IMG/VR virus record: IMGVR_UViG_3300045950_000038
Location: 1-31,302 of that record
Direction: 5' to 3' (one strand)
DNA: 31,302 nucleotides
Origin: a virus
Numbering within the stretch: the stretch's first letter is position 1; the number at the start of each line of letters is the position of its first letter. The translations under genes were made by a program, and so were the position numbers. Positions 15,988-29,624 of the stretch are shown here, piece by piece. The notes under the pieces are model-generated. The model ran no database searches, was not told the origin of the DNA, and saw nothing but the letters and a program-made list of their open reading frames with translations.

Positions 15988-18057
15988 TCACGCGCCCGGG
16001 TTGCGCCATCCGCCGCGCCAGTCGATGGCGCCGACACCGAAATCGCGTTCCACGCTGTAGCGGACACCCTGCATGCCGAAGGGCTCTTCCATCCGCAACC
16101 TGGGACCCTCGTCGCCCTGCAGGAAGCCGTGCATGAACAGGGCCTGCACGCCGGGATCCGGCAACAGATACCATGCGTTACCGGTGATCTTCGGCGTCGA
16201 GACCACGGTCAGGCGACCGGAGAAGGGGTTGACGCCGGACGACTGGTTGGGCGTGATCGTCTCCACGAGCTGCTGCGCTTCGGTCAACTTGTCGGGCCCC
16301 ACCAGAAGAATGGACGGGGTCAGCGCAAGGTCTTCGCCGTTGATCCCCTTGTGCTTCTGGATCGCCGCGCGCCCGGCACCAAGGGAGGCAACGGTGATCG
16401 CGGCGCCGGACGCGGCCAGCGTCGCATCTGTCGTGTTGAAAACGGCACGACCGGTTTCGGTCAGCGTGGGACCAGCACCGGAACCCGTGAGCATCATGGC
16501 GAAGAAGTTCGCTTCCTCCGTCCTCGCCACGGCGGCGCCCTGCGTCGTCAGCATCCGGTCCATCGCGCCGAGATCGTCGTTCACGATCATCTGGCGGGTG
16601 AAGCCGACGGCGATGGCCAGAGCCACCAGGGCAACGGTCTCCTTCTTGTCGCCGATGGTGCCATACTTGATCTCACCCTTCTCGTTCACCGGCTGCAGAA
16701 GCGGCATCGATCCGGTGTTCACCATCGGGTGGGGCCGGAAGTCGGTGAAGTCTGCGCGCATGGAGATCTGGCTGTACACCGGAGTGGCCAGCTGATAGCC
16801 CGCGATGAGGCGCTTGTTCAGGGCGTTCTCGAACACCGCCGGAAAGTCGCTGGTGGTGTGCATGGCGCTCATGAACACGTCGAGCTTGTCCTGTGCAGTG
16901 CGCACGCGGCCCTTGTGCCCGATGGCCTGGGCCGCCATCTCGACCAGCGTCAGATCCATGTAGGGCCTTGCCTGATCGCTTTCCGGATCCGTGCGGCCAA
17001 GCTGGGCGACGATGGCCTGCCCCATGCCGGTCCGCATCGTCTCGCGCTCGTCGCGCAGGATCCTGGCCGTGGTACGGCCCTGCATCGGAATGTCCATGTC
17101 GCCCTGTTCCTTCCACTTGGCGTTGATCTGGTCGAGGCAGGTTTCCAGCGAAGCCGTGCTTCCGATCAGTTCGGAAGCAAAGGCAATCGGCAGGCCGGCC
17201 ATTGCCACAGCGTCGGTGATCCGCTTGGCGCGGGCATTCGCAGCGGCGAAGGCGCGCGCGGTCGCCTTCTCCGCTTCGAGGTCGTGCGTGTCATTCTGCG
17301 ACGCATCGTCGGCCTCGATCATGTCGAGTTCGTCGTCTTCGACTGCGGCGGTCACCCCCGCAGGCTTCTGCGCTTTCTGTCCCATCGAGGGCTCCTTTCC
17401 GGTGGTGCGGGGCAGGCCCGCGATCATGGCCATGACGGCCGAGCGCCCCGGAGCGGGTGCCCCGAGGGATTCCGACGCCTCGCGCAGGTCCTGCGGCGCG
17501 GTGGCATAGATGCGATAGTCGAACCTTGCGGCCGGTGCGGCCGGCTCATCGACCTCGACACGAGTCGCAAAGCCGAGATCTACCGCCATGGTTCCGTCCA
17601 TGACGGTTTCTTCCCGCATGATCTTCCGGGCGTCTTCCCGGCTGAGACCGCTACGGTCCGCGTAGATGTCGGCATAGGCGTTCGAGATGACCGCCAGAAG
17701 GTCGGCTTCCTTCCGGTGATCATCCTCGGTCCCCCGGCCCATCGTCCATGGCGTCGCCGGGTCGTGGATCAGCATCCACGCGCCAAGTCGCATGATGATC
17801 TCTTCCCCTGCCATTGCGATCAGCGATGCCGCAGACGCGGCCACGCCATCGACCTGAACAGTGACTTTTCCGGGATAGTCCTTCAGGGCGGTGTAGATTG
17901 CCTGCCCTTCGGTTGCTATTCCACCACCCGAGTTGATGCGGACAAGCAGGTCACCGGACATCCCCGCCAGTTTCTCGCGAACCTGCTTGGCGGTGAAGTA
18001 ATCCTCATCCCACCAGGATGCGCCGACCGTCCCGTAAAGCGTCAGCTCATTCATCAT
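15988..18057 (-). CDS. ClpP-like prohead protease / major capsid protein fusion
   Basis: A 689-aa fusion. Residues 1 to about 200 are an S14 (ClpP-type) protease with SGGGIATEGQAIY, the nucleophile region GVAASAAS (Ser75) and MLIHDP (His98). Residues about 225-320 are a charged helical scaffold-like segment (DDELDMIEADD, DLEAEKATARAFAAANARAK). Residues about 330-689 are a Mu gpT/HK97-fold major capsid protein (TDFRPHPMVNTGSMPLLQ, EANFFAMMLTG, ending AIDWRGGWRNPG). The same fusion is a recognised class in prophages of this group; the protease would shape the scaffold and free the capsid. The first ATG (18057) overlaps the portal stop by 11 nt; the ATG at 18054 has better spacing to GGAG. An internal start at 17385 is listed separately. 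Confidence 0.9.
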   Translation of the reverse strand: MMNELTLYGTVGASWWDEDYFTAKQVREKLAGMSGDLLVRINSGGGIATEGQAIYTALKDYPGKVTVQVDGVAASAASLIAMAGEEIIMRLGAWMLIHDPATPWTMGRGTEDDHRKEADLLAVISNAYADIYADRSGLSREDARKIMREETVMDGTMAVDLGFATRVEVDEPAAPAARFDYRIYATAPQDLREASESLGAPAPGRSAVMAMIAGLPRTTGKEPSMGQKAQKPAGVTAAVEDDELDMIEADDASQNDTHDLEAEKATARAFAAANARAKRITDAVAMAGLPIAFASELIGSTASLETCLDQINAKWKEQGDMDIPMQGRTTARILRDERETMRTGMGQAIVAQLGRTDPESDQARPYMDLTLVEMAAQAIGHKGRVRTAQDKLDVFMSAMHTTSDFPAVFENALNKRLIAGYQLATPVYSQISMRADFTDFRPHPMVNTGSMPLLQPVNEKGEIKYGTIGDKKETVALVALAIAVGFTRQMIVNDDLGAMDRMLTTQGAAVARTEEANFFAMMLTGSGAGPTLTETGRAVFNTTDATLAASGAAITVASLGAGRAAIQKHKGINGEDLALTPSILLVGPDKLTEAQQLVETITPNQSSGVNPFSGRLTVVSTPKITGNAWYLLPDPGVQALFMHGFLQGDEGPRLRMEEPFGMQGVRYSVERDFGVGAIDWRGGWRNPGA
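17383..17400 (-). promoter_or_regulatory. Internal ribosome binding site for scaffold-capsid product
   Basis: On the minus strand, GGAAAGGAG stands 6 nt before an in-frame ATG at 17385, which encodes Met225 of the protease-capsid fusion (MGQKAQKP). It is a stronger Shine-Dalgarno than that of the full-length gene. It sits exactly at the junction between protease and scaffold, so translation from it would give a 465-aa scaffold plus capsid without protease, as with the nested C/Nu3 and Mu I/Z genes. Use in vivo is inferred. Confidence 0.7.
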
Positions 18058-22656: not shown

Positions 22657-23298
22657 TCAAGCGGTCGTGTCCCAGGGCCGCTGCGGCGGCATCTCGCGCG
22701 TCAGCTCGATCCGCCGCAGGCCGGCGCCCGCAATCTCGTCGCGCAGGTGCAGGAGGGCGGACCACCACAGCAGGTATTCCCGCCGCGCCGCCGCGATCTG
22801 CGCCGCCGTCGGGCGGAACGTGACCGGGCAGGCCAGCACGTCCACCACCTTCCTGCGCCCGCGCCGGCCGCGCACCTCGACCCGCCCGACCACCGAGGTG
22901 CGGGCAAAGACCCCGTGCCGGTTCTCCACCACATCCACCGGCACGCAGCGCGGCACCGCGCCCGGCATCCAGTCAGGCACCGCGCCGCATCTGGCGAGCC
23001 TCGCGATCTCCACCGCCATGCCGCGCCCGCCGCAGCCCTCGCGCAGGTTGGCCACGAACGAGGCGATGATCTCGGCGTCGTCGTGCCGCGGCGACCGGCC
23101 GCCGCCATCCACCCGACAGCCGAGCCGCCCGCGCTGCATCATCCGCCAGATCGTGTCCACACCGCCCGGCCCCTCGCCGATCTCGTCGAACTCGACCGAG
23201 ACCCGCTCCACCGCGAAGGCCCATTCCAGCGCCTGCCGGATCGACATCTGCCGCTTCACCGGGGTTGCACTGTCAAATCCCTTGGACTGATCGGTCAC
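22657..23298 (-). CDS. Conserved prophage protein of unknown function (213 aa), late-regulator position
   Basis: A 213-aa protein. The N-terminal part reads IRQALEWAFAVERVSVEFDEI, then GVDTIWRMMQRGRLGCRVDGGG, SPRHDDAEIIASFVANL, GCGGRGMAVEIARLARCG and WMPGAVPRCVPV; the C-terminal part has CPVTFRPTAAQIAAARREYLLWWSALLHLRDE. It resembles a conserved unknown found between primase and terminase genes in alphaproteobacterial prophages. It has no recognised catalytic motif. It starts with GTG at 23298, 7 nt after AAAGGG. It has an operator-like palindrome upstream and a terminator downstream, so it forms a single-gene unit where lambda has its late antiterminator Q. A late-gene regulator is plausible but unproven. 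Confidence 0.75.
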   Translation of the reverse strand: MTDQSKGFDSATPVKRQMSIRQALEWAFAVERVSVEFDEIGEGPGGVDTIWRMMQRGRLGCRVDGGGRSPRHDDAEIIASFVANLREGCGGRGMAVEIARLARCGAVPDWMPGAVPRCVPVDVVENRHGVFARTSVVGRVEVRGRRGRRKVVDVLACPVTFRPTAAQIAAARREYLLWWSALLHLRDEIAGAGLRRIELTREMPPQRPWDTTA

Positions 23299-23305
23299 GG
23301 CATGG

Positions 23306-23355
23306 CCCTTTCGCTATATCTTGTAGCCACATTTCCATTCAACCCAATGGGTTGA
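23306..23355 (-). promoter_or_regulatory. Candidate promoter with 17-bp palindromic operator
   Basis: A perfect 8-bp inverted repeat with a 1-nt centre, TCAACCCAATGGGTTGA, lies at 23339-23355. A possible -35 box TTGAAT (23342-23337) overlaps it, and ATATAG/TATAGC (about 23319-23313) lies 17-18 nt downstream on the minus strand. A repressor on the palindrome would block this promoter. A caution is that transcripts would start very near the AAAGGG ribosome site (23311-23306) of the 22657-23298 gene. The palindrome is certain; promoter and operator roles are inferred. Confidence 0.45.
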
Positions 23356-23373
23356 TTCTCTTTCATTTCGTAA

Positions 23374-23720
23374 GGGAGGTTGGGGAGGATGGAAGAAGAA
23401 GAAAGGGAGGATGGAACGCGAAGTCAGGGAGGATAGGTTATCAAGCCATATCAATGACTTGCCGCACAAAAAGGGAGGTTGGGGAGCTTGGGGAGGATGT
23501 TTTCTCGCCTCATGTGAGAGACCATCCCCTCACCCATTCCCGAGCCAGACCCCCATACCCCTTGTCGCGCGCGCACGCATGTAAGGGTCGGATTTATCCT
23601 CCCCAACCTCCCCAACCTCCCCGAACGTCCAGTAACCAGCGGATCTGCAAGGATTTCCCCCGAACCCCGAAAGGCGTCGCAACCTCCCCGACGGGGGAAT
23701 TCCATCCTCCCCGACCTCCC
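23374..23720. repeat. Nested imperfect palindrome of GGGGAGG(T/A)T units, candidate replication origin
   Basis: Seven units on the plus strand (starting near 23374, 23382, 23405, 23427, 23473, 23481, 23490) face six on the minus strand (23596, 23605, 23614, 23681, 23704, 23713). Outer arms 23374-23394 and 23700-23720 match at 20 of 21 positions. Inner arms 23473-23498 and 23596-23621 match at 25 of 26. Both pairs share the centre 23547 and are separated by exactly 78 nt on each side, so the whole is one symmetric structure. The G runs could also form G-quadruplexes. Iterated repeats near a phage helicase gene suggest an origin or initiator-binding site; this is inference. Confidence 0.85.
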
Positions 23721-23755
23721 CGGAATAGCACTGCGACGGGTGCGGGCGGCGCGCA

Positions 23756-25657
23756 TCAGAAGTCCTCCCGGTAATCGGCGGCCGGCGGATCCTCGGGCGG
23801 CATCGCCCCGACGGTCAGCGCGCGACCCCTCTGGTCCTTGGGCGCGGCGTCCCAGTCCTTGCGGAAGAAGGCGGTGAAGCGGATGCCGTCGTAGAACATC
23901 CGCCCGCCGCTCTTGACCTGGGCGAACTTCTGGCCGGTGCGCCTGGATCGCCAGCGCCGGGCATGGTCGGCCAGGGCGCGGGCGATGGTCCGGTCGCGAT
24001 ACTGGCCCTCGCCCCGGGCGGTCAGCCAGTAGTTGAAGGCGTTGACCAGTTCGGCCGCGCCGATCCGGTCGCCTTCCTCTCCTGTCACCTCGCAGGCCTC
24101 GTCGAGGAAGGCGCCGTAGGGATCGCTCTCCTCGCGCAGCGCGCTGGTCGCGTTGCGGACCTGGGCGGGCTCCATCAGCCCGCCTTCCAGATAGGCCAGC
24201 GTGCCCTGCACCATCCAGTTCAGGACGCCCGAGGCCTCGGCGAACAGCGCGGCATCCAGCTCCTGCTTCGGCCGCCGCTCGGCCTCGGGGATCTGCACCG
24301 GGAACTCGATCAGCTTGACCCGCCGCCATATCCCGTCGTCGGTGCCCTTGAACACCGGCTTGTGGTTGCCCGAGACGATGGGCTTGAAATAGGGCTGGAT
24401 CTCGACGAATCCCTCCTGCAGGGCGCGGATCAGCATCGGCTCGCCGCCGGTCATCTCCTTGATCAGGCCCTCCTGCCAGGACACGCCCTCGGCGGGTTCC
24501 GCGGCGGTCGCCATCCGCGCCCCGATCAGCGGCACGAGGTCCGGAGTGGCGTCGCCGCCGCTGCGCCGGTTGGTGCCGGTCAGGCTTTCGATCTTGGCCT
24601 TGGCGGCATAGTCCGCCAGCATGCGGTGGATCAGGTCCACCAGCACCGACTTGCCGTTCGCCCCGTCGCCGTGCAGGAAGAAGATCACCTGTTCGATCAC
24701 GGCCAGCATGGACAGGCCGAAGACGCGCTGCAGATAGCCCTGCACCTCGGGTTCGGGCTGGATCCGGTTGAGGAAGGCGCGGAAGGTGGGCGCCTCGGCA
24801 TCCGGGTCATAGGCCACGTCCATCCTCTTGGTGATCAGGTCGGCGCGGTCATGCGGGAGGAACGCGACGCTGGCGCGGCGGAACCGGCCCTCGGTATCCA
24901 CGCGGAAATGCAGGGTTCCGTTCAGGCAGTTGACCTTCAGCGGATCGGCATCCAGCCGGTCCACCGTGACCGACAGGTTGACCCCGCCCTCCTTCAGCAT
25001 GTTGTTGAGGGTCGCGGTGTTGCCGGCCTGCTTGGCGTGGCGCAGCCGCTGCGCCACCTTGTCCTGCGCCAGCGACAGGACGCCCTCGATTTCCGTGCGC
25101 TCCTTCCGCAACGCCGCCAGCTCGGCGGCAGCCTGGGCGCTGCGGTCCTTCGACGGCACGGCCTCGATCTCGTCGAGACGCGCCCCGATCGCGCGCAGGC
25201 GGGCGTGCAGGTCGGATTCGTCGCGCGGGCGCAGAAAGACCGTCTCGCGCGCGATCAGGTCCGACATGGTATGCGTCAGCTTGCGCGTCGCAACTCCACC
25301 CGGCATGTCCTTCACCGCGGGCGGGTCGAACTTCCAGCGCGTGCCGTCCCAGATGTGCCAGCCGACATTCGGCACGAAGCGCGCGTTCTCGCCGTGGTGG
25401 ATCCCGAAGCGCAGCCCGTTGCCCACGTCGTGCATCGGCAGGGCCGACGCGCGTTCGACCTTGCCCCAGTCGATCCCGTCGGCGTCGGACGGATCGTCCG
25501 GCGGCGGCAGCCCGTCATCGCCGCCCCGGTCATCCGGCGCCGGCCCCGGATCATGCGGATCGTCCGGCGGCGCGCCAGATCGCACCAGCCCATCGGGCAG
25601 GTCCACGTCCTCTGGGTTCGCGAGGATCCTGGCAACGCGGTCGGTGTCTGCGGTCAT
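23756..25657 (-). CDS. P4-type primase-helicase (SF3 helicase, DUF5906/D5-like)
   Basis: A 633-aa replication protein. Residues 1-65 are an acidic, proline-rich start. Residues about 75-225 hold a D5_N-like region (WHIWDGTRWKFD, then helices). The SF3 helicase core starts near residue 290 with Walker A GDGANGKS at 330-337, the sensor segment KPIVSGNHKP, and an arginine-rich WRRVKLIEFPVQIP. The C-terminal winged-helix-like part follows (AELVNAFNYWLTA). This C-terminal plan is that of the phage/plasmid primase P4 family, which unwinds the origin. No zinc-finger primase domain is visible; that activity is carried by the 26499-27623 gene. Its ATG overlaps the upstream gene as ATGA. Confidence 0.92.
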   Translation of the reverse strand: MTADTDRVARILANPEDVDLPDGLVRSGAPPDDPHDPGPAPDDRGGDDGLPPPDDPSDADGIDWGKVERASALPMHDVGNGLRFGIHHGENARFVPNVGWHIWDGTRWKFDPPAVKDMPGGVATRKLTHTMSDLIARETVFLRPRDESDLHARLRAIGARLDEIEAVPSKDRSAQAAAELAALRKERTEIEGVLSLAQDKVAQRLRHAKQAGNTATLNNMLKEGGVNLSVTVDRLDADPLKVNCLNGTLHFRVDTEGRFRRASVAFLPHDRADLITKRMDVAYDPDAEAPTFRAFLNRIQPEPEVQGYLQRVFGLSMLAVIEQVIFFLHGDGANGKSVLVDLIHRMLADYAAKAKIESLTGTNRRSGGDATPDLVPLIGARMATAAEPAEGVSWQEGLIKEMTGGEPMLIRALQEGFVEIQPYFKPIVSGNHKPVFKGTDDGIWRRVKLIEFPVQIPEAERRPKQELDAALFAEASGVLNWMVQGTLAYLEGGLMEPAQVRNATSALREESDPYGAFLDEACEVTGEEGDRIGAAELVNAFNYWLTARGEGQYRDRTIARALADHARRWRSRRTGQKFAQVKSGGRMFYDGIRFTAFFRKDWDAAPKDQRGRALTVGAMPPEDPPAADYREDF

Positions 25658-26498: not shown

Positions 26499-27623
26499 TC
26501 AGCCTCCCATCAGCACGTCGTTCACGTCAAATCCGTTCGGTGCCGCGGCGATCTGCCCGCGCAGGCCTGGGCGCAGGAACATGGCCCGGCGCAGCCCGGA
26601 TTCGAGCTTCGCCCGCGTGTCCCGCGGGTCGCTGTCGCCGTCCATCACGTAGATCAGCCGCTCCACCCAGGGCGGCGGCACGAAGGCCTCGTCGTCGTCT
26701 AGATCCGGCAGCCCGGCATGGCGCAGGCCCGGGCCGGACTGCCGCCGTCCGCTCATGTTGCCGAGATCGACGAGGCACCAGAAGGCGGCGTCCGGATAAA
26801 GACCCGACGCGGCATTGCCCATCATCGCCGACCAGGTGGTTTCCAGACCCTCGCCGCAGATCATCGTGGAGGCGTGCAGGCCGCCGGTCAGCCGGATCGC
26901 ACCACCCTTCTTTGACCCCAGCGCCTTCTTCACCTCCAACGGCTCGCCGGTCTCCGGGTGGATCACCCGGGCCTTGCCCTTGGGCTGCGACAGGTCCAGC
27001 CAGGTGCGATGCAGCCCGCTGAACCTTCCGTCCGGCCCCTGGATCGCGGCCAGCATCGCCGGGCCGCGATGCACCACGCGCCATTCTCCCCCGATGTGAT
27101 GGGCGTAAGGCAGGTCCGGGTGAAGCCGGATGCAGGACCGGAATCCGCCCAGGGCCTCGATGTCGATCGCGCGGCGGGCGAGATAGGCCTGCACCTCGGT
27201 CCCGGCCGGATTGCGGCCCTGTTCCCAGATCCGGCGCGCCTGGCGGATCGCATCGGCGCGAAACCGCTCCGCGTCCCGCTTCGCCTCGGCCTCCCTGCGC
27301 CGCGCCTCCTCGATCCGCGCCTTGCGCTCCGCTTCGGTGACACCGTCGATCTCGCCGCAAAGCCAGGTCAGCGCGGCGGGGAAATCGCAGCCCCGGTCAA
27401 ACATGACCAGAGCGACCCCGTCGCCCTTGGCGCCGCAGATCCGACACTGGAACACGCCCTTGCGGGTGTTCACCGCGAAGCGGTCCCTGCCGCCGCATTT
27501 CGGGCATGGGCCGACCAGTTCGTGCCCGGTGCGTTTCAGGTTCGGGATGCGCAGCAGGTGGACGATCTCGGCGATGGGCCTCGCATGCGCCTCGGCGATC
27601 CTCGGATCCTCGGCCCGCATCAT
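26499..27623 (-). CDS. DNA primase with CHC2 zinc finger and Toprim domain
   Basis: A 374-aa primase. The N-terminal zinc finger has Cys40-Pro-Lys-Cys43 and Cys60-Arg-Ile-Cys63, the pattern used to recognise template DNA. A charged helical linker (residues about 95-130) follows. The Toprim domain has ICGEGLETT (Glu258) and VMDGDSD (Asp328, Asp330, Asp332), the metal-binding acidic residues of primases and topoisomerases. It ends GFDVNDVLMGG, typical of phage P4-type primases. The true start is at 27623 or 27620, overlapping the TGA of the preceding gene; the frame open up to 27749 is a shadow. It should prime at the origin opened by the helicase at 23756-25657. Confidence 0.92.
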   Translation of the reverse strand: MMRAEDPRIAEAHARPIAEIVHLLRIPNLKRTGHELVGPCPKCGGRDRFAVNTRKGVFQCRICGAKGDGVALVMFDRGCDFPAALTWLCGEIDGVTEAERKARIEEARRREAEAKRDAERFRADAIRQARRIWEQGRNPAGTEVQAYLARRAIDIEALGGFRSCIRLHPDLPYAHHIGGEWRVVHRGPAMLAAIQGPDGRFSGLHRTWLDLSQPKGKARVIHPETGEPLEVKKALGSKKGGAIRLTGGLHASTMICGEGLETTWSAMMGNAASGLYPDAAFWCLVDLGNMSGRRQSGPGLRHAGLPDLDDDEAFVPPPWVERLIYVMDGDSDPRDTRAKLESGLRRAMFLRPGLRGQIAAAPNGFDVNDVLMGG

Positions 27624-27958
27624 GCCGCCTCCACCTTCGCCAGTGCGACGCGGATCGCGTCGCGGGCCAGAGCCGAGGACAGGTCGAGATGCGCGCGCAC
27701 CCAGTGCACGGCGCCCTCGCCGCGCTTGCGCCGGTGCGGCCAGGCGCACAGGATGCCTTCGGCCGCGTCGCGCAGCGCCTCGATCCGGCTGGACCGGCTG
27801 GCCAACGGCAGACAGCGGCCGATCAGATGGATCGCCAGTTCCTGGTCCGGCGTGTCGATCCGGCTGGTCGCCACGCAGATCAGGCTCGCGATCAGCACCT
27901 GGTCGGCGTTCTCGCGCCGGATCCGCCCGGAGGGCAGGTATGCCGACCCGTCAGCCAT
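27620..27958 (-). CDS. Early phage protein of unknown function
   Basis: A 112-aa, mainly helical protein (MADGSAYLPSGRIRREN, VLIASLICVATSRI, IHLIGRCLPLASRS, ALRDAAEGILCAW, VHWVRAHLDLSSALARDAI). It starts at 27958, overlapping the preceding gene by 8 nt, and its stop overlaps the primase start. The short hydrophobic stretch near residue 20-32 is too polar around it to be a clear membrane anchor. Not recognised. Confidence 0.62.
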   Translation of the reverse strand: MADGSAYLPSGRIRRENADQVLIASLICVATSRIDTPDQELAIHLIGRCLPLASRSSRIEALRDAAEGILCAWPHRRKRGEGAVHWVRAHLDLSSALARDAIRVALAKVEAA

Positions 27959-28573: not shown

Positions 28574-28833
28574 GCCACCACCTCCGCCCCAGCGGGGCCT
28601 GTCTTCGGAACCGGAGCCCCGGCAACGGGACAGGCAGCGCCGCCGCCGGCCCGCAGAACGCATCGCACCCATGCCACAAGGTCCGGATGCGGCGATCCGT
28701 CGTCCGCCACGACGGCATCGCGGGCCAGCAATGCGTCGAACCCGGCAAGGTCGGTCTCGGACAGACGCGGCAGGATCGCCTTCAGCCCCGCCCTGTAGCC
28801 CGAAACCAGCGAGATCCGCAGCAGGTCGCTCAT
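28570..28833 (-). CDS. Small early phage protein, unknown
   Basis: An 87-aa protein: MSDLLRISLVSGYRAGLKAILPRLS, ETDLAGFDALLARDAVV, HPDLVAWVRCVLRAG, then a Gly/Ala/Pro-rich tail. It lies between the ParB-like and DUF6378 genes with ATGA overlaps at both ends. The N-terminal helical repeat is regular, but no family is recognised. Confidence 0.6.
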   Translation of the reverse strand: MSDLLRISLVSGYRAGLKAILPRLSETDLAGFDALLARDAVVADDGSPHPDLVAWVRCVLRAGGGAACPVAGAPVPKTGPAGAEVVA

Positions 28834-29624
28834 GCGGTCACCCCCGCCCTGGCGATGAGATTGCACAGCCCCTTGCGCCCGCCATTGGCGCCCGAGGTCT
28901 CCAGGATCTTGAACGGATTGGCCATGGACAGGGCGCGCAGCAGGACATCGAAATCCGGGCAGCCTGCGTCGCCGACGGCCGTGATCCACGGCCGCAACAG
29001 GAAATCGGTATAGGCGACTGGACGCTCGGCCAGCGACGGCGCATTCGCGATCGCCTGCAGGCCCAGCGTGATCGCCCGGTCGTTGCCGGCCTCGACCTGC
29101 CTCCGGATGAACCCGATGCAATAGACCTGCCGCGCCTGCTTCTGCGCGCCCGTGGTGTTGTAGGTCATCAGCCTGCAACCCGCCGCCGAGACCGCCGCAT
29201 CGGCCCGCAGCGCCCAGTCCTCGCCCGCGGCCAGCGCCGCCTTGAGGACGTGGAAACCCGTGACACGGATCTGCTGGCTGTTGATCCAGGCGAAGGCGCG
29301 GCTCTGCTCCTCGAGTCCGACCTGCACCACCATCGCCGGAACCTCGGCCAGCCCGCACAGCGCGGCGGCATGGACCCGATGCTGTCCGTCGATGATGGCA
29401 AACATGCCGCCCTCGACCGGGGCCACCAGCACCGGCCCGAACCGGCTCCAGCGGAAGTTGGCGGCGATCCTGTGGATCGACTTCCAGTTGCCCTTGGACA
29501 GCGGGCGCTGATAGCGATCGTCGATCACCATCCGCTCCAGCCCGATCCACTGCAACATCGGTGCCGGTCCGGGTGCGGCCTCGACCGGATCGTGCCCCCC
29601 GATATCGATGCCGCGCCGGGTCAT
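28830..29624 (-). CDS. ParB-like N-terminal domain protein
   Basis: A 264-aa protein. Residues about 25-110 carry a ParB/sulfiredoxin-type fold: LERMVIDDRYQRPLSKGN, FGPVLVAPVEGGMFAIIDGQHR (DGQHR at 79-83, the phosphate/CTP-binding-like box), AALCGLAEVPAMVVQV. The remaining 150 residues are helical (FAWINSQQIRVTGFHVLKAAL, QARQVYCIGFIRRQV) and differ from chromosomal ParB, and no ParA gene is present, so classical partitioning is unlikely. Proteins of this domain in phages may be DNA binders, nucleases or transcription regulators. It is the longest gene of the early operon before the replication proteins. It starts at ATG 29624 within an ATGA overlap. Confidence 0.8.
   Translation of the reverse strand: MTRRGIDIGGHDPVEAAPGPAPMLQWIGLERMVIDDRYQRPLSKGNWKSIHRIAANFRWSRFGPVLVAPVEGGMFAIIDGQHRVHAAALCGLAEVPAMVVQVGLEEQSRAFAWINSQQIRVTGFHVLKAALAAGEDWALRADAAVSAAGCRLMTYNTTGAQKQARQVYCIGFIRRQVEAGNDRAITLGLQAIANAPSLAERPVAYTDFLLRPWITAVGDAGCPDFDVLLRALSMANPFKILETSGANGGRKGLCNLIARAGVTA

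Follow-up and report, generated by a model that had tools for sequence, protein, structure and literature searches.

The gene of a D5/SF3-type helicase in this 31.3-kb virus record (the window) is followed by a noncoding stretch in which short G-rich units face one another around a common center. What is the function of this array? The original prediction had offered a phage replication origin, a multi-site binding platform for the helicase or its helper proteins, or a G-quadruplex switch. From comparison with the DNA of related phages, we conclude that the array is most probably the replication origin of the phage, its units being iterons recognized by the helicase.

Genes around the array

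All the genes around the array lie on the minus strand. In the order of transcription they are the DnaG-like primase, the helicase, then (after the array) the phrog_9306 gene, an HTH protein in the terS position and a GpA-type terminase. The array starts 35 bp past the helicase stop codon and is noncoding. Three of these genes are:

23756-25657, minus strand: D5/SF3-type helicase (D5_N, DUF5906, P4-family primase C-terminal domain), proposed iteron-binding initiator; from profile matches and predicted model
26499-27749, minus strand: DnaG-like primase (CHC2 zinc finger, DUF7146), likely partner; from profile matches
22657-23298, minus strand: phrog_9306 gene, directly after the array in transcription order; from PHROG match

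The helicase has 633 amino acids and matches D5_N (1.7e-22), DUF5906 (3.4e-6) and TIGR01613, the P4-family primase C-terminal model (5.4e-64); its nearest PHROG is phrog_1156. The invariant Walker A sequence GxGxNGK(S) is found at residues 330-337. The predicted model (pLDDT 85) has a winged-helix-like C-terminal region at approximately residues 531-604. It aligns with the African swine fever virus (ASFV) PrimPol (9ivf, Z 28.3) and with SaPI5 Rep (7om0, Z 26.5 over 400 residues), and with D5 too; a profile search agrees with the structural alignment (7ola, 1.9e-12). The predicted fold matches that of self-loading initiators such as SaPI5 Rep.

Elsewhere in the window, a single 689-aa frame on the minus strand (15988-18057) combines a ClpP-like protease domain with a phage capsid domain, and a minus-strand gene among the early genes (28830-29624) gives weak matches to ParB_N and DUF6551, below the Pfam cut-offs. 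Searches for RNA families, tRNA and promoters found none in the array stretch or in the window.

A mirrored array of nine-base units

Thirteen nine-base units matching GGGGAGGWT with at most one mismatch lie within 23373-23721, seven exactly and six with one mismatch. As had been proposed, seven units on the plus strand (starting at 23373, 23382, 23404, 23426, 23472, 23481 and 23490) face six on the minus strand (23596, 23605, 23614, 23681, 23704 and 23713). The nested arms were also confirmed. The outer arms (23374-23394 and 23700-23720) are 95% complementary and the inner arms (23473-23498 and 23596-23621) 96%; they share a common center at 23547 and are separated by 78 nt on each side. The array is mirrored in its arms but imperfect as a palindrome: its plus-strand arm carries one more unit, at 23426. 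Its units are arranged as follows:

23373-23721, unstranded: the complete mirrored array of iterons, candidate core of a replication origin; from unit counts and a layout kept in relatives
23373-23390, plus strand: outer unit pair (AGGGAGGTT, GGGGAGGAT); unit search
23404-23412, plus strand: single unit AGGGAGGAT, in the slot about 85 from the inner edge; unit search and slot geometry
23426-23434, plus strand: extra seventh unit AGGGAGGAT, having no mirror partner; unit search and slot geometry
23472-23498, plus strand: inner unit triplet (AGGGAGGTT, GGGGAGCTT, GGGGAGGAT); unit search
23596-23622, minus strand: inner triplet of inverted units; unit search
23681-23689, minus strand: single inverted unit GGGGAGGTT; unit search
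23704-23721, minus strand: outer pair of inverted units (GGGGAGGAT, GGGGAGGTC); unit search

Could such a cluster arise by chance? Allowing one mismatch, GGGGAGGWT is found 19 times in the whole window against 16.7 expected, and 13 of the 19 fall inside the 349 bp of the array. The exact sequence NGGGAGGWT occurs 11 times in the 31-kb window, every time inside the array. In dinucleotide shuffles of the whole window no 349-bp stretch contained more than two copies, and the array when shuffled never had more than three. Comparison of the array with those of two close relatives, L051 and L195 (whose helicases are respectively 79% and 65-68% identical to that of the window), gave identities of 85-87% in the units and 53-59% between them; in these two relatives the units are thus more conserved than the spacers.

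Arrays beside related helicases

Helicase-guided scans together with annotated phages provided 110 nonredundant loci, 109 of which were used to count arrays. We employed a de novo scan that assumes no motif, taking as an array any 450-nt stretch with at least seven copies of its best 9-mer. In 72 of the 109 loci such an array immediately followed the helicase gene; among matched control stretches the counts were 1/105 further downstream, 4/97 upstream and 0/109 inside the gene. The remaining 37 loci had fewer than seven copies in the first 450 bp; some of them have a displaced array or five or six copies, and some have no array. Examination of 19 low-scoring loci revealed arrays displaced 0.3-1.9 kb downstream (L204, L206, L207, L213, RR1-A and L224), while some of the 19 gave none. 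Absence of the array from close relatives that keep the helicase had been named beforehand as evidence against an origin; most relatives do have it. In L206, L073 and L224 the array is retained more than 1 kb from the helicase gene, with the same spacing in L206, and it seems to move or stay as one unit.

When viral contigs were scanned for pairs of adjacent units, further phages having this layout came up, many of the arrays lying beside a relative of the helicase. The clearest form is L042 (the contig of L195), with units at +0, 9, 32, 99, 108 and 117 and at -224, 233, 242, 309, 331 and 340. Mirrored units are also present in Mycobacterium phage Patt (AGGGACAT) and Staphylococcus phage IME1365_01 (GTGAATACC). 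RcCronus (30% identity) has only a weak, unmirrored cluster, and the archaeal Methanoculleus virus L4768 only a short set of units. A pattern scan of genome contigs returned many unrelated cyanobacterial tandem repeats plus a few real arrays (L084, L127, L139 and L171). In L079, L100, L114, L128 and similar loci (genomes of Laspinema, Okeania and Oscillatoria) the G-rich 9-mer of the window forms tandem runs that mostly keep to one strand and do not adjoin the helicase of this family; these are probably an unrelated repeat. Records named as cyanophages (L068, L069, L070 and L075: Pan4, Sc-Yong805-1, Nsp-JY21 and Mae-JY02) carry helicases and arrays that are both of alphaproteobacterial type, and the array positions of Synechococcus phage Sc-Yong805-1 and Nostoc phage Nsp-JY21 are identical; the stated hosts of these four may be worth checking.

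The distribution of the arrays bears on two other functions. The first is DNA packaging, the array being a cos or pac site for the small terminase. In the window the array does sit between the replication genes and terS/terL, and in the record of RcapNL the annotated cohesive ends fall inside the array, as 3′ overhangs at L194:1-26 and L072:5957-5982. However, the two "ends" are the same 26 nt and the phage is listed as circularly permuted (PMC8601537), and they therefore look like a break in a circular assembly. Moreover, the array adjoins the helicase in phages of many kinds, and in phage Sfi21 cos (at 40722) is 6 kb away from the annotated origin at 34487. A packaging role is thus highly unlikely. 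The second is a regulatory platform, an array of promoters, operators or terminators that switches the late genes or the phrog_9306 gene. The array lies 75 bp upstream of the phrog_9306 start, and one short palindrome (23339-23355) was picked out as resembling a terminator. Yet no sigma-70-like promoter was found within the stretch, the gene that follows the array varies among phages, several arrays are 0.3-1.9 kb from the helicase, and origin annotations exist for two arrays at this position. We regard regulation as very unlikely indeed.

Constant geometry and a changing unit

The letters of the unit differ by clade. GGGGAGGWT of the window is replaced by GGGAAGAT in Pan4, AGGGACGAT, AGGGACG in RcapNL and AGGGAGGCW in AmM-1; other clades have GGGCTTGA, GGGCYTGA (Paracoccus phage Pthi1 and its kin), GCGAGGGTT or TGGAAGG, and GTGACAGTT and TGGACCAAT are further removed. 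In the 11 loci having at least six units in both arms the units lie at 0, 9, 18, 83-86, 105-108 and 114-117 from the inner edge, although their sequences differ; the sole exception is the left arm of L276, where the outer units are shifted by about 10. Six clear units per arm are found in only these 11 of the approximately 70 arrays. Mirror partners within 2 nt exist for 54% of the outer units in 69 loci; random placement gives 15% (500 trials, maximum 22%). The length of the center varies, from 71 to 110 bp in the 11 six-unit loci and from 55 to 117 bp in all 70, and no helical period of the central gap stands out among the 70 (R ≤ 0.22). In some clades the unit in the middle slot is flipped.

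These comparisons also bear on the idea that the array acts through DNA structure, either as a switch made of G-quadruplexes or as one large cruciform. In favor of this are the G-rich units and the folding of the 349 nt as a single strand, with -84.4 kcal/mol compared with -58.1 kcal/mol for shuffles (z -6.45), a strong fold that results from the inversion of the units. But a mirrored layout is kept with units that lack G-tracts, such as GTGACAGTT, TTAGTTAC (Sfi21) and GTGAATACC (the Staphylococcus phage), a cruciform would not be expected to have so long and variable a center, and flipped units occur. A structural element is extremely improbable, and a G-quadruplex switch is not supported as the conserved function, given the relatives with units GTGACAGTT, GTTACT and GTGAATACC, none of which contains a G-tract.

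The unit sequence tracks the helicase (Mantel rho 0.37, 0/2000 permutations), close helicases sharing a unit. The correlation is modest and is not limited to the C-terminal domain, and other linked genes would correlate too; when identity was correlated across the domains of the helicase, no single domain stood out as setting motif specificity. It is possible, at somewhat less than even odds, that there is a family-wide origin code, in which two rigid facing half-sites of six 9-bp units each (0-9-18-85-106-115) would accept one helicase hexamer apiece across a flexible center, with the unit changing together with the helicase.

Spacers, center and flanks

The sequence between the units had been described as mostly not conserved. 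The spacers do show the lower identity in L051 and L195, but they also carry conserved boxes that are not mirrored. In the window the relevant features are:

23657-23668, minus strand: G-box GGGGTTCGGGGG, confined to one side, in the spacer separating outer from inner units; from conservation of the GGGGTNNGGGG box
23550-23561, minus strand: second G-box GGGGTATGGGGG, in the center; GGGGTNNGGGG is in the center of 21/70 loci
23566-23584, unstranded: tract of alternating C and G (TTACATGCGTGCGCGCGCG as read on the minus strand), in the center; from CGCGT enrichment in centers
23435-23471, unstranded: AT-enriched spacer, putative unwinding element; from AT content over 70 loci
23310-23369, unstranded: flank with the highest AT content (GC 38%), separating the array from the next gene; from base composition

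Over the 70 loci the GGGGTNNGGGG box is found in the left spacer of 31, the center of 21 and the right spacer of none, with about 0.1 expected. CGCGT is present in the center of 46/70 (7.3 expected). The right spacer has a mean AT content of 0.56 compared with 0.37 for the loci (+20 percentage points), and is above its own locus in 97% of the 70. In the array of the window the AT enrichment is in one spacer and the flank; the center is not AT-rich, unlike those of A2 and Sfi21. The one-sided boxes and spacers suggest that the array has a polarity beyond that which the palindrome alone would give. A near-perfect palindrome TCAACCCAATGGGTTGA at 23339-23355, between the array and the phrog_9306 start, is also present in L051, and boxes related to it (TCAAYGGGTT, CAACCCATTGA) occur within the spacers of other arrays.

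How the probable origin might function

What was observed directly is the array with its conserved layout, the fact that it accompanies this family of helicases, and its agreement in position and layout with the annotated origins of two phages. Arrays of similar mirrored layout accompany related helicases, and two of these are annotated as origins; for this reason we favor an origin. The first proposal, an origin and multi-site platform for the helicase, is well supported.

How might such an origin work? The helicase, whose gene directly precedes the array in the direction of transcription, would bind the nine-base units as iterons, probably with its C-terminal domain. On two opposed half-sites, each of some six units, a pair of hexamers would form face to face. 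Melting would take place in the AT-enriched spacer or flank; the rings would then be loaded onto single strands and separate, and the phage DnaG-like primase would prime synthesis. We infer the helicase, rather than another phage protein, to be the binder, and likewise its binding domain. Two hexamers, with the six sites of each arm loading one, are suggested by analogy, and the melting site and direction of the forks are putative. We estimate a probability of about 0.88 for this explanation, in which the array is the replication origin of the phage.

The loading of D5-type ring helicases at origins, including the poxvirus and ASFV enzymes, is poorly known. The set of approximately 70 natural origins, in which layout is kept while the recognition word changes, provides matched helicase-unit pairs for finding the residues responsible for recognition, and would allow the loading of two hexamers on two six-site halves to be tested. 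The layout could also predict origins in phage genomes that have none annotated.

Comparison with known systems

The helicases of two phages with annotated origins belong to the same PHROG families as that of the window. In Lactobacillus phage A2 (NC_004112) the rep_origin (32208-32717) directly follows the homologous primase-helicase, as in the window. It contains mirrored ACGGGAGGA units, close to GGGGAGGWT, at +19, +37, +49 and +113 and at -188, -196, -252 and -264, four each way (shuffle maximum 5). Its middle is AT-rich. It differs in having units at approximately 0, 64, 76 and 94 from the inner edge, and the A2 helicase, 29-30% identical to that of the window, is the C-terminal portion of a larger primase. 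The annotated 302-bp origin of Streptococcus phage Sfi21 (the phage-encoded resistance element) is likewise noncoding, directly after the primase-helicase, with mirrored short units, here TTAGTTAC, around an AT-rich center. It has TTAGTTACT in place of GGGGAGGWT, and the units are fewer and weaker (five copies of the 9-mer compared with a shuffle maximum of four).

The alpha primase-helicase of P4 resembles the window helicase in its P4-family helicase domain (TIGR01613). The P4 phage also has an iteron origin, in this case with two separate sites, ori and crr. By description, the SaPI Rep-ori and the putative SCCmec Cch2 origin are alike in having a self-loading D5-type initiator with iterons directly downstream of its gene, for which two hexamers have been proposed (PMC7581432); these belong to islands, whereas the array of the window belongs to a phage. 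The open papers searched contained none giving the GGGGAGGWT unit or the geometry of the array. The statement that there is no named element of this form is only partly right, since origins of such a kind are known; for the exact geometry no description was found in those papers. Among searchable papers the fixed half-site geometry and the drifting unit look undescribed, in what seems to be an origin of a known kind.
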